A stretch of DNA of 33,528 nucleotides from positions 1 through 33,528 of the forward strand of contig CAILQW010000003.1 of assembly GCA_903836515.1 (NCBI GenBank), written 5' to 3'. Positions 22,012-27,592 of the stretch are shown here, one piece after another (positions within the stretch are counted from its first letter, which is position 1; every line of letters begins with the position of its first letter). The notes below the pieces were generated by a model. The model worked only from the letters and a program-made list of their open reading frames with translations. It was not told the origin of the DNA and did no database searches. A program made the position numbers and the translations under genes. The stretch comes from Candidatus Omnitrophota bacterium (lineage in GTDB: Bacteria > Omnitrophota > Gorgyraeia > Zapsychrales > Fredricksoniimonadaceae).

Positions 22012-23124
22012 TCACAGGGTTGAACGGCGCTGGTGCGAAAGATTAAGCAAAAAACCCGCCATGACCGCGAAAACCAGAAACGACGTCCGTCCGTAACTGA
22101 CAAAAGGGAGCGTGATCCCCACCACCGGGCTCAGCCCCATGGTCATGCTCATGTTGATCACCACCTGCAACGTCAAAATGGACACGATCCCCACAGCCAC
22201 CAGATACCCGAACTTGTCTTTAACCCTTCCGGCGATGAGGATGCCCGTGTAGATCAGCATGAAATAACATCCCAGCAGGAAAAGCGTGCCCGCGAACCCC
22301 CACTCCTCGCCGATCACCGCGAAAATAAAATCCGTATGGCGTTCGGGCAGGAAATTAAGCTGGTTCTGCGTCCCCGCCAGCCACCCTTTGCCAAAAACCT
22401 GGCCCGAGCCGATGGCAATGCGGGACTGGATGATGGTATACCCCGCACCCAAAGGATCAATGTTCGGATTGAGAAAAACCAGAAGCCGGTCTCTCTGATA
22501 ATCCTTGAGAAAATGCCAGCCGAACGGGACCACCAGCGCACACAGCCCCAAAAACCAGGTCAGCGGTTTCCAGTCGATGCCGCTGGCAAAAAGCATGATC
22601 ACGAATATCCCGAACACCAGAATGGCCGTGCCCAGGTCAGGCTGTTTGAAAATAAACGCAAAACTGAGCATCATCAGGCAGAGCGGATACACAAGGTCAC
22701 GGCCCAGCGCATAAATGACACTACGGATATCAAAGGACAACTTCAGGTTCCGCTTGCTGAAATAGCGCCCCAGCATCAGGATGACCGCGACTTTTGACAA
22801 CTCCGACGGCTGAAATGTGATGCCCGCCACATTGAACCAGCGCGTGGCACCCAGGGCGGAACGCCCGGCGACCAGCACAAACACCAGCAGGCACACATTA
22901 ACAATATACAACGGATAGGCGACATCGTAAAACATCCGGTAATGCACCCGGCTCAGGATGAACATCACGGCCAGCGCCAGGGCCGCACAGGCCAGCTGGT
23001 CGTAAAAAACCTGATGCGACACACGGACATTGTCATACGACGCGCTGTACAATGTCACCAGGCCAAAGGACATGATGAGCAAGGTACAGATCCAGATCAT
23101 GCGGGCATCACCCGAAATCCTCAT
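22012..23124 (-). CDS. rodA: RodA/FtsW family peptidoglycan polymerase (SEDS)
   Basis: This is a 370-residue polytopic membrane protein from ATG 23124 (GGAG six bases upstream). A longer start at 23208 would overlap the preceding small gene by about 70 bases. About ten transmembrane helices are seen, with the SEDS signatures GATRWFNVAGITFQPSELSK, FIFKQPDLGTAI and INMSMTMGLSPVVGITLPFV. RodA-type proteins polymerise lipid II into glycan strands with a class B PBP. RodA is favoured over FtsW by the NMSMTMGLSPVVGI segment. The usual YGGSS after the last motif reads YGRTS here. Confidence 0.9.
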   Translation of the reverse strand: MRISGDARMIWICTLLIMSFGLVTLYSASYDNVRVSHQVFYDQLACAALALAVMFILSRVHYRMFYDVAYPLYIVNVCLLVFVLVAGRSALGATRWFNVAGITFQPSELSKVAVILMLGRYFSKRNLKLSFDIRSVIYALGRDLVYPLCLMMLSFAFIFKQPDLGTAILVFGIFVIMLFASGIDWKPLTWFLGLCALVVPFGWHFLKDYQRDRLLVFLNPNIDPLGAGYTIIQSRIAIGSGQVFGKGWLAGTQNQLNFLPERHTDFIFAVIGEEWGFAGTLFLLGCYFMLIYTGILIAGRVKDKFGYLVAVGIVSILTLQVVINMSMTMGLSPVVGITLPFVSYGRTSFLVFAVMAGFLLNLSHQRRSTL

Positions 23125-23137
23125 CAATGGCTCCGTG

Positions 23138-23389
23138 CTACTCGGATTTTTGCCAGGGCCAGGGGCATTCGTAACGGCAGGCAATCTCCGGATACGGGGT
23201 CTTGACACGCTTCATGCACGCCGCTTTACAGCGCAGGGTGTCGATGAGCGGCACCGCGCAAAAAGAAACCACCAGGATCACCAGAAGCACCTTCTTCTGC
23301 CGATCCGACAAAAGCGGCTTGCGCCCAGCCTTGTCCTTCTTCCATTCCTTTCTTTTCTCATTCCTGGACTTGTCTTGATCCTTGGCCAT
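23138..23389 (-). CDS. small membrane protein with twin CX3C motif
   Basis: This 83-residue protein starts from ATG 23389, preceded by GGAGG six bases away. The first 33 residues are very basic and charged, one transmembrane helix follows (about 34-52, VLLVILVVSFCAVPLI), and the short C-terminus has cysteines 54, 58, 71 and 75 in the arrangement C-x3-C-x12-C-x3-C. By the positive-inside rule the cysteine part lies in the periplasm. A twin CX3C pattern suits a helical hairpin stapled by two disulfides. I recognise no family. It sits between the Memo/AMMECR1 fusion and rodA and shares an operon with a DsbA-like and a MauE-like gene, so it may be their substrate. Confidence 0.75.
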   Translation of the reverse strand: MAKDQDKSRNEKRKEWKKDKAGRKPLLSDRQKKVLLVILVVSFCAVPLIDTLRCKAACMKRVKTPYPEIACRYECPWPWQKSE

Positions 23390-23390
23390 C

Positions 23391-24905
23391 TCACTCCTCC
23401 TTTTCGCCGAAAACATCAGCTGTGAATATTTCTATTTTAGTCGCGGGATCTTTCCAGCAATCGGGTTCAAGCCCCGCTTTCTGCGTACAAAGTTCCGACA
23501 AAAACTTCTCCCGGCTCCAGCCGGTCTCGGTCGCGACCTGGGGCAGGAAAACACCTCCGCGCGCGCCGCGCCTGACGATCACCCCGTGCGTGCCCATCAC
23601 GATCTGACGGGCATCCGTGACCGCCACGGGCGCTGAGAGGACGGAAATTTCGATGCGGACATCCTTAAGTTCGTCCGCTGTGACCGGCGCAAAACGGGGA
23701 TCCTGGCTCGCGGCCGCGACCGCCATGTCGCGCACCGTCAGGTACAACGGGCCTGCACCCACGATCTGACCGATGCACCCGCGCAGGGCGCCTGATTTCT
23801 TGAGAGTGACAAAGGCGCCCTCTTCCCGGGAAAGCCGCGGATCCTTCCCATCGGCCACAAAAGTTTTCCCCGTCCTGACAAACGTATCCACCGTGGAGCG
23901 CGCGATGGCCAGAAGGCTCTTTTTCTGCGCCTCCGTCAGGGCTGCGGCATTCACGGGCAGCTGGGCCGCCGGCTTCCTGTAAAATACGACCGAGGCGTAC
24001 CCCACAACACTCCGGGCATCCCCTGTCACATCCGCCGAGGTGGCATGCCGAAGAACCCTGGCCTGATCATACCCCATCGCCCGGGCATACAGCATGGCGG
24101 CTGTGACCACATGAAACCCGTCGACCTCCATCTCTCCGGCAACATGCCCGGACCAGAAAGCATCAGGATCGAATGTCTCGATGGCCGCTAACCCCTTGCG
24201 GTCAATATCATTAGCCTGTCCCAGGGGATGAAAATGCGACTGGTCAACGCTCACATCCACCAGCACATCCTGACGCCTGCCCACCGCCTGCACAAGGGCG
24301 GCAGCCACAGCGCGGACCGTGGCAGGGTCCGGCGGAAACCCCATGATCACCGGCACGATCTTCGCCCCGGGAAATACATGCTGGATGAACGGGATCTGGG
24401 TCTCGACCGAATTTTCCGGACGGCCGGGGGCCCCTTCAAAAACATCCCGGCGCACAACAAACAGCTTGTCCGCGGCCATCAGGCGCCCCGCCAGATCCTC
24501 ATCCACCGCCACAGCCCCCAGCGGCGTCGTAAAACGGCCCTTGGGCCATACCGCGGCCCCCTGAAACGAAAAATGGTGCGTCGGCGCGAGGACAATAACC
24601 GTTGACACTTTTTTCACCCGGACGGCCTTGAATCCGTACGCGGCCACGCCGCCGGAAAACGGATACCCTGCGTGCGGTGAAACGATAACGCCGATATCGC
24701 CGGCGGACGGGATATCCTGGGGAAGATCACCGGCGGCTGTAAGAAAACCGTCGAGCATCAACACCAATTCCTCCCTGGCGCCCGGATACCATGTCCCGGC
24801 CAGGCCAGAGGCCTTCATATCATCGTCGGCACAGGCAAAAGGTTTCATCATCGTCAATACCGTAAAAACGGCCCCAAAAAATAATACAGCAAATGGTGTT
24901 CTCAT
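23391..24905 (-). CDS. exported Memo-AMMECR1 fusion (AmmeMemoRadiSam B+A)
   Basis: This 504-residue protein combines two partners of the AmmeMemoRadiSam system. Residues about 1-27 form a Sec signal with an Ala-Cys-Ala end before DDD. Residues about 30-315 are the Memo domain (SGLAGTWYPG, SPHAGYPFSGGVAAYGF, LAPTHHFSFQG), with histidines expected to bind metal. Residues about 322-504 are the AMMECR1 domain, with LRGCIGQI and GVIVRRGARGGVFLPQVA. No radical SAM partner is visible nearby. The biochemical role is not settled in bacteria. The start overlaps the MauE-like gene by ATGA, and the stop is one base before the next start. Confidence 0.85.
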   Translation of the reverse strand: MRTPFAVLFFGAVFTVLTMMKPFACADDDMKASGLAGTWYPGAREELVLMLDGFLTAAGDLPQDIPSAGDIGVIVSPHAGYPFSGGVAAYGFKAVRVKKVSTVIVLAPTHHFSFQGAAVWPKGRFTTPLGAVAVDEDLAGRLMAADKLFVVRRDVFEGAPGRPENSVETQIPFIQHVFPGAKIVPVIMGFPPDPATVRAVAAALVQAVGRRQDVLVDVSVDQSHFHPLGQANDIDRKGLAAIETFDPDAFWSGHVAGEMEVDGFHVVTAAMLYARAMGYDQARVLRHATSADVTGDARSVVGYASVVFYRKPAAQLPVNAAALTEAQKKSLLAIARSTVDTFVRTGKTFVADGKDPRLSREEGAFVTLKKSGALRGCIGQIVGAGPLYLTVRDMAVAAASQDPRFAPVTADELKDVRIEISVLSAPVAVTDARQIVMGTHGVIVRRGARGGVFLPQVATETGWSREKFLSELCTQKAGLEPDCWKDPATKIEIFTADVFGEKEE

Positions 24906-25355: not shown

Positions 25356-25970
25356 TTATTTCATCTCCCCGGCAAGGACCTGCTGCAGGTTCTTTGTCCC
25401 GACAGCCATCTTGCCGTTGATAAAAAATGTCGGTGTGGCCGCAACGCCCCTGGCATGCCCTTGCGCAACATCCTCCTCGATCCTGGCCGCAACAGCATGG
25501 TCGGACATGCAGCGCATCATCTTGACATCGTCCAGGCCGAGGCCGCGGGCAAGGCTCAAGAAATAATCATCGGGATTGTCCATCCCCACCCAGCTTTTCT
25601 GGCTTTTAAAGAGCAGCTGCTCCATGGGCCAGAACTTTCCCTGGTCCAGGGCGCACGCCGCAATGACCGCGGCGCGCCGGGCATGCTGATGCATGGGAAG
25701 CGGAAAATACTTGAGCTCCAGCAAGATCCTCCCCCGGGCACGGCGGACTTCTTCATGGAGCAGGATGGATGCCTGGGCGCAGGCCGGGCATTGAAAATCC
25801 GTAAATTCAATAATCTTCACAGGCGCGCCCGCGGGTCCCAGCGTGCGCCCCTCGGCGGCGACATGCTCCGTCAGGACAGGCCGTGTGACGGCACGCGCCG
25901 CCATGACGGCGGCGATCACGCCCAGCCCCACCAAAACACCCCATACAGGTTTTGCAATATTCACGGGCAT
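25356..25970 (-). CDS. DsbA-like thioredoxin-fold disulfide oxidoreductase
   Basis: This 204-residue protein has an N-terminal membrane anchor or uncleaved signal (about 8-27), then a DsbA-type thioredoxin fold. The active site is CPAC (C61-C64) in FTDFQCPACAQ, and the cis-proline loop is ATPTFFINGK near residue 182. The PMHQHARRAA segment is typical of DsbA/BdbD-like proteins. It should oxidise or isomerise thiols in the periplasm. The start codon overlaps the pckA stop (TGATG). With the MauE-like neighbour it forms a probable electron-relay pair. Confidence 0.9.
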   Translation of the reverse strand: MPVNIAKPVWGVLVGLGVIAAVMAARAVTRPVLTEHVAAEGRTLGPAGAPVKIIEFTDFQCPACAQASILLHEEVRRARGRILLELKYFPLPMHQHARRAAVIAACALDQGKFWPMEQLLFKSQKSWVGMDNPDDYFLSLARGLGLDDVKMMRCMSDHAVAARIEEDVAQGHARGVAATPTFFINGKMAVGTKNLQQVLAGEMK

Positions 25971-27592
25971 CAGGCCTGTATCAGCTGCGGGCCGGCAGAC
26001 ACCAGGGCCTTGGCCGCCGGATCGTCCTCGAATTTCCTGAAATTCTTCACGAACATTTCTGCAAGGCGCCGGCAGGAAGCATCATACTCGTTCTTGTCCG
26101 CCCAGACATGACGCGGGTTAAGCAGCCGGGCATCGACCCCCTTGACCGCGCGCGGGATCTCCACGCCGAAAACCGGCATGCGCTCGAACTCGCCGTGATC
26201 GATGTCGCCGTTTAAGATCGCATCGATGATCGCACGGGTCTGCACGATATCCATGCGGTAACCGACACCGTATTTACCCGCAACCCAGCCGGTGTTCACC
26301 GCGTACGCCGTGGCGCCATGGCGGGCCATCTTCGCCGCCAGGATCTTGGCGTAACGGATCGGATGCAGCGGCAGGAAGGCCTGGCCGAAACACGATGAAA
26401 ACGTCGCCTGCGGCTCGGTCACACCGAGTTCTGTTCCCGCGAGCTTGGCCGTATAGCCGCTCAAGAAATGATACATCGCCTGTTCACTGGTCAGGCGCGC
26501 GACCGGCGGCAGTACGCCGTAGGCATCGCATGACAAAAAGACGATCCGCCGGGGATGCCCCCCCTTGGAAACTGGCTTCACAATATTATGGATATGATGG
26601 ATCGGATAGGACGCGCGGGTATTCTCGGTCTTGGCTTCGGAGGTGAAATCGATCCGGCCGGCACCGTCGAGCACAAGGTTCTCGAGGATGGCGTCGCGCT
26701 TGATGGCATGATAAATATCCGGCTCTTTTTCCTTGGAAAGGTTAATGCACTTGGCATAGCACCCGCCCTCGAAATTGAACACCCCCTCGTCGTCCCAGCC
26801 ATGCTCGTCATCGCCGATAAGACGGCGCTTGGGATCGGCCGACAAGGTGGTCTTGCCGGTGCCCGAAAGGCCGAAAAAGAGCGCGGTATCGCCCTTCTCC
26901 CCCATGTTGGCCGAACAATGGAACGCGCCGATCCCCTTGAGCGGCAGGAAATAATTCATAACCGTAAAAACACCCTTCTTGATCTCGCCGCCGTACCAGG
27001 TGCCGCCGATGCAGGTCATGCGCTCGCCGATATGGAACGCACCGAAAACCTCGGAACGCATCCCGTAGGACTTGAAATCCGGGCATGATGTCTTGCAGGC
27101 ATTGAGGATGGTCCAGTCGGGCCTGAAATCCTTGAGTTCCTCGGCGGTGGGGCGCAGGAACATGTTCTTGAAGAAATGCGCCATCCAGGCCACTTCCGTG
27201 ACCAGGCGCACGCACAGGCGCGTGTCCTTGTTGGTGCCGCAATAACCGTCCATCACATAAAGCTTCTTGCCGGAAAGCTGCTGCAGGGAAAGACCCTTGA
27301 GCCGGGCCCAGCCTTCGGGGGACAACCGGCGGTTATCGGACCCGTTCTCGGGAGTGGTCCACCATATCTCGCCGCTGGAAGATGGCTCGTCGACAAAATA
27401 CTTGTCCTTGGGAGAGCGCCCGGTGAACTTGCCCGTATCCACGTTGACCGCGCCGAGTTCCGTGACAACACCGCGCTCCCATCCCGTCAGGGAAGGGTCG
27501 GTCTCGCGGAGGAAAAGCTCCTCGTAGGAAAGATTGTGCGCAATGGTACAGGCATCTGTGATCCCCAGACGCAACAGATCCTCTTTAAGCAT
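25970..27592 (-). CDS. pckA: phosphoenolpyruvate carboxykinase (ATP)
   Basis: This 540-residue enzyme converts oxaloacetate and ATP to phosphoenolpyruvate, CO2 and ADP in gluconeogenesis; it can run in reverse in fermenters. The kinase-1a motif [14 protein letters not shown] is near residue 240, preceded by the metal-ligand region with [38 protein letters not shown] follows, with [10 protein letters not shown] near the N-terminus. Length equals the E. coli enzyme (540). GGGGG precedes the ATG. It sits 23 bases after a CheY-like gene and is coupled to the DsbA-like gene, an unusual location for a metabolic enzyme. Confidence 0.96.

Follow-up and report, generated by a model that had tools for sequence, protein, structure and literature searches.

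The window analyzed here, a stretch of 33,528 nucleotides from a Candidatus Omnitrophota bacterium (contig CAILQW010000003.1), contains a reverse-strand operon in which genes for PEP carboxykinase (PEPCK), a DsbA-like protein, a MauE-type protein, a Memo/AMMECR1 fusion, a small membrane protein and RodA follow one another in that order, with spacings of -4 to 13 nt (Table 1). The rodA gene most likely starts at the ATG at 23124, which leaves a 13-nt gap, and not at the upstream GTG at 23208. The Memo/AMMECR1 fusion carries an apparent N-terminal signal sequence that suggests its export. The PEPCK gene is missing at this place in many relatives.

Table 1. Coordinates of the small gene and its operon in the window.
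Feature	Position	Strand	Basis or remarks
RodA-type SEDS protein, following the small gene	22012..23124	-	Pfam FTSW_RODA_SPOVE; start taken at ATG 23124
Small protein, 83 aa	23138..23389	-	Lys/Arg-rich N-terminus, one membrane helix and C-terminal C-x3-C-x12-C-x3-C tail
Twin-CX3C module, codons C54 to C75	23165..23230	-	Invariant Y66-P67-E68 and A70 in alignments
Shine-Dalgarno region, AAGGAGGAGTGAG ahead of the ATG of the small gene	23390..23402	-	Seen directly in the sequence
Memo-AMMECR1 fusion (AmmeMemoRadiSam B + A), Memo ligand Cys -> Asp262	23391..24905	-	Pfam Memo and AMMECR1; TIGR04336/TIGR04335; column comparison; MEMO1 alignment
MauE/DoxX-type membrane protein, CGC motif (C102, C104) and clade-specific C130	24902..25354	-	Pfam MauE
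DsbA-like thioredoxin, N-terminal hydrophobic anchor, CPAC active site	25356..25970	-	Pfam Thioredoxin_4 and DSBA; CXXC conserved
ATP-type PEP carboxykinase	25970..27592	-	Pfam PEPCK; 1-nt overlap with the DsbA-like gene

The frame of the small gene (23389->23138 (-)), whose product begins MAKDQDKSRNEKRKEWKKDK, was found exactly as claimed in a preliminary description of this DNA: 83 residues, a Lys/Arg-rich start, one membrane helix and cysteines at positions 54, 58, 71 and 75. An extra cysteine, C44, lies within the membrane stretch and is not conserved. This hydrophobic stretch covers residues ~34-52 (mean Kyte-Doolittle value, 2.6), and all 20 copies of the small protein described below have a 19-residue hydrophobic stretch with a mean hydropathy of 2.3-3.2. 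The start is supported by AAGGAGGAGTGAGATG, a strong Shine-Dalgarno sequence, and by the 1-nt gap to the stop of the Memo/AMMECR1 gene. No second twin CX3C with a gap of 9-16 residues was found among the other open reading frames of the window. Within the genus, the small gene had a dN/dS of 0.06-0.21, dS being near saturation, and variation was greatest at third codon positions. A chance open reading frame at 23138-23389 is ruled out by the existence of homologues, by purifying selection and by a constant gene position in the family of the window (here termed f1). The small gene is real and is under purifying selection.

The distribution of the small protein was examined by single-sequence and profile searches. 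A single-sequence search recovered 14 further copies in f1 (E values of 1e-26 to 1e-35) and weaker matches in f7 and f4, two further families of its order. Profile searching gave credible small-protein matches in 20 of 81 genomes, comprising 15/32 from f1, 4/4 from f7 and 1/7 from f4. A single-sequence search of the class, a profile search of the phylum and a scan of GTDB yielded no convincing copies outside this order, and the hosts in GTDB records were Omnitrophota, including Ca. Elulimicrobium and Ca. Aceula. Two weak matches were rejected by inspection, L077 as a glutamate synthase-like protein and L095 as lacking the cysteine pattern. The invariance of the cysteines, which the preliminary description had named as a check, was confirmed: the C-x3-C-x12-C-x3-C spacing is the same in 20/20 copies, and alignments of 12-17 members have invariant columns at C54, C58, Y66, P67, E68, A70, C71 and C75. 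The four cysteines and the YPE-A residues are unchanged across the three families at 30-35% identity. Searches of Pfam, NCBIfam and the PDB matched the small protein to no known family, and a search of one literature library found no bacterial twin-CX3C membrane family, in agreement with the earlier statement that no family with this layout had been described. The small protein is a family not previously described and restricted to one order of Omnitrophota.

Separately, G002:C145 holds a second copy that differs in architecture, a polytopic protein of about five helices (L050:8174-8806) with the same CVASC...YPELACKYQC tail at its end, which stops one residue past the last cysteine. By inspection, the positive-inside rule would place the tail of this copy outside. 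The bin is 64% complete, and this contig may be foreign to it.

The gene neighborhood of the small gene differs between families. In f1, 15/15 copies are flanked by Memo/AMMECR1 and rodA, the place where the preliminary description had suggested that relatives be searched, and a CXXC DsbA and a CGC MauE lie upstream wherever the contig reaches that far. The operon with DsbA-like and MauE-like genes that had been described for the window is thus conserved within its own clade. In f7, the small gene precedes a UvrD-type helicase gene and follows genes that are recJ/argS-like by inspection only; in f4, it follows an Hpt-like gene.

AlphaFold2 models of the small protein, obtained at modest confidence, predicted a helix-loop-helix fold. 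For the window protein (14 homologues), helices were predicted at residues 29-61 and 67-74, with a mean pLDDT of 73 and a pTM of 0.41; for an f7 homologue (17 homologues), they were predicted at residues 2-35 and 41-48, with a mean pLDDT of 79 and a pTM of 0.47. The predicted long helix spans C54 and C58, the loop falls at TPYP, and the short helix bears C71. The probable role of the four cysteines is to stabilize a small helical hairpin, against which the low pTM of these models (0.41-0.47) would count. A fold search gave no PDB match with an E value better than 3.9, a result that carries little information for a helical fragment. The preliminary description had also placed the cysteine tail in the periplasm. 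Net charges of the 15-residue flanks support an outside tail in f4 (7 at the N side versus 2 at the C side) and in most f7 copies (3 versus -1 to 3), making this location likely; it is not settled for the window clade, where the charges are ambiguous (4 versus 5 in the window protein). Homologues were found, their cysteines are conserved and the tail is not predicted to be cytoplasmic, so that none of the outcomes that the preliminary description had listed as fatal to it was encountered.

The predicted fold invites comparison with two known groups of twin-CX3C proteins. The mitochondrial small Tims (Tim8/9/10/12/13) adopt a helix-loop-helix with C1-C4 and C2-C3 disulfides (PMC3759932), and share with the small protein the CX3C-loop-CX3C arrangement, the helix-loop-helix predicted here, a possible C1-C4/C2-C3 pairing and the plausibility of being oxidized by the compartment's own oxidase (PMC3759932, PMC5203823). 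However, small Tims are soluble hexameric chaperones, whereas the window protein has a membrane anchor, a very short second helix and the invariant YPE-x-A. The small-Tim Pfam model (zf-Tim10_DDP) did not match any of 14 members up to an E value of 10, nor did any small-Tim PDB chain match up to the same value. The small protein resembles a twin-CX3C hairpin in its working but, being membrane anchored and without a profile match, is not a small Tim. Plant alpha-hairpinins, antimicrobial peptides that form a helix-loop-helix with two disulfides (PMC11591084), have a CX3C-Xn-CX3C pattern for which the curation range of n = 4-20 includes the 12 residues seen here (PMC11591084), and share the fold predicted at modest confidence. 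They are small free defense peptides without a membrane helix, in contrast to the bacterial, membrane-anchored window protein, and no sequence relation was found.

From the gene, its conservation, operon, motif and distribution, we infer a topology, disulfides, hairpin packing and partner, which together make up the best explanation available, a tentative one that falls somewhat short of an even chance: an exported, membrane-anchored twin-CX3C hairpin, with two nested disulfides in the window organism, that turns its YPE-x-A face toward an envelope partner. The small protein would be a single-pass protein of the inner membrane with a cytoplasmic N-terminus and the tail outside; the ambiguous flank charges in f1, which do not fix the orientation, would count against this arrangement. 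The membrane helix would extend beyond the membrane into the tail, taking in C54 and C58, turn at the K-T-P-Y-P loop and pack against the short helix, which would carry C71 and, at its end, C75. In the window organism, an envelope oxidase, DsbA, recycled by MauE, would most likely close the nested pairs C54-C75 and C58-C71, giving a rigid hairpin that displays the invariant Y-P-E-x-A surface. Such a hairpin could act as a non-catalytic docking module, or envelope adaptor, for an envelope partner. Judged by gene order alone, the likeliest partner in the window operon would be the exported Memo/AMMECR1 protein or RodA.

The relationship of the small protein to DsbA and MauE was also considered, since the preliminary description had proposed it as a dedicated substrate or partner of this pair. 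Such a private partnership is not supported. Upstream of the small gene, the operon corresponds to a known block of DsbA-MauE with an AmmeMemoRadiSam A/B fusion (TIGR04335/TIGR04336), which is widespread in the order but usually lacks the small gene; conversely, 4/4 f7 genomes keep the small gene with all four cysteines and have no operon-type DsbA-MauE block, so that the gene occurs apart from the pair. Searches of the f7 genomes for MauE gave nothing or only weak matches in the DoxX range, and VKOR gave no match. Three of the four have only a single-cysteine DsbA paralogue, with active sites CPYS, CPYS and CPFS (L149, L150 and L151), and no DsbA was found in the fourth at the thresholds used. 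VKOR, present in 1/81 genomes, was discarded as a candidate oxidase. Because f7 keeps the cysteines while searches for DsbA, MauE and VKOR gave no CXXC DsbA, operon-type MauE or VKOR there, oxidation by DsbA cannot be their family-wide cause, unless another oxidase, such as DsbB or Erv, acts; f7 organisms may still oxidize the tail by such other means. In the window organism, disulfide closure of the tail is likely, and DsbA and MauE would serve as general oxidases for the small protein, not private ones.

The AmmeMemo system's radical SAM partner was found in 65/81 genomes (in G000 on another contig) and thus was not correlated with the small gene. In genome G046 (L122:3118-5710), the DsbA-MauE pair adjoins a radical SAM gene that matches the AmmeMemoRadiSam enzyme model, an arrangement that constitutes a second link of this system to thiol oxidation genes.

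The main rival to a disulfide hairpin is metal binding. Here, the four cysteines would bind Zn, Fe or Cu, and the membrane-anchored tail would store the metal or hand it over, for example to Memo; disulfides would be absent or secondary. This reading is favored by f7, in which the cysteines persist without a CXXC DsbA or MauE. Twin-CX3C small Tims show both disulfide formation and zinc binding, and in the reduced state bind zinc 1:1 through all four cysteines (PMC3759932). MEMO1 is also a metal protein, with H49, H81 and C244 as its ligands for iron or copper (PMC11081632), and the C244 position is Asp in the small-gene clade. However, the f1 tail shares its operon with a CXXC DsbA and MauE, the twin CX3C on two predicted helices would suit nested disulfides well, and no metal-handling gene was recognized beside the f7 or f4 copies. 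A metal site is less likely than the disulfide hairpin, though the most credible of the alternatives.

A second alternative is that the small protein is a structural or regulatory subunit on the RodA or cell wall side, with cysteines that only stabilize its fold and a redox linkage that is a by-product of old gene order. Consistent with this reading, rodA is only 13 nt away and lies near the small gene in every f1 genome that has it, and the redox block, widespread in the order, also occurs where the small gene is missing. It is nonetheless improbable, as the f7 and f4 copies do not adjoin rodA and other f1 genera have rodA without such a protein.

Among genomes that lack the small gene, many have the DsbA-MauE-Memo/AMMECR1 block followed by a 151-aa one-helix protein, a 411-aa membrane protein or both, and in f1 genera then by rodA (for example, L106:2937-3392 for the 151-aa protein and L106:3706-4941 for the 411-aa protein). 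The conserved 151-aa protein has no Pfam match. The 411-aa protein ends in a DCC1-like domain by Pfam; a vitamin-K-carboxylase-like (HTTM) identity was set aside, as Pfam backs the DCC1 part only. The 151-aa protein occurs in 27/61 and the full-length fusion in 26/61 genomes without the small gene, while both are found in 0/20 genomes with it. For the fusion, this exclusion gives a Fisher p of 1.7e-4 when kinship is ignored, a value that overstates it, since the small gene requires only three changes on the Memo/AMMECR1 tree and the independent events are therefore few.

The neighboring genes also differ in the small-gene clade. The Memo ligand position corresponding to MEMO1 C244 by profile alignment is Asp in 15/15 small-gene operons of f1; the other members compared in the order, f7 and f4 included, all have Cys there (24/24). 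Extradiol dioxygenases carry Glu at this place (PMC11081632), and Asp262 together with H78 and H110 resembles a 2-His-1-carboxylate site. MauE of the small-gene clade has an extra Cys at position 130, near the C-terminus, in 13/15 members versus 0/22 elsewhere. The Memo Cys->Asp change, the MauE Cys gain and the small gene suggest an operon that was altered together; the Memo and MauE changes are limited to one clade and may coincide through shared ancestry alone. A stronger version, in which an envelope redox operon was rewired by displacement of the DCC1-like cassette and the twin-CX3C protein supplies a thiol function lost with the Memo Cys->Asp change (possibly creating an iron site), is quite doubtful. 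Least probable is a thiol-disulfide relay that functionally replaces the DCC1-like oxidoreductase fusion of other genera: the Memo/AMMECR1-rodA slot does hold either the small gene or the 151-aa protein plus the fusion, with the exclusion counted above, but one slot replacement, in f1, suffices for this pattern, the f7 and f4 copies sit elsewhere, the large membrane domain of the fusion has no counterpart in the small protein, and CX3C pairs on helices are, to our knowledge, not a redox active site.

Collectively, the locus provides a new small family within a conserved operon, and greater interest attaches to two leads, the gene replacement in the operon and the switch from Cys to Asp in Memo. 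Mitochondria and plants are the best-known sources of twin-CX3C hairpins, and a bacterial, membrane-anchored hairpin of this kind that is strongly selected would have been invented independently. Being compact, the small protein would also serve as a test case for how oxidation proceeds in the envelope of an uncultured phylum. For Memo/AMMECR1 proteins, of long-unknown function, the displacement of the cassette and the Cys->Asp replacement in Memo serve as a natural experiment, since the metal sites and partners predicted from one form of the operon differ from those predicted from the other.
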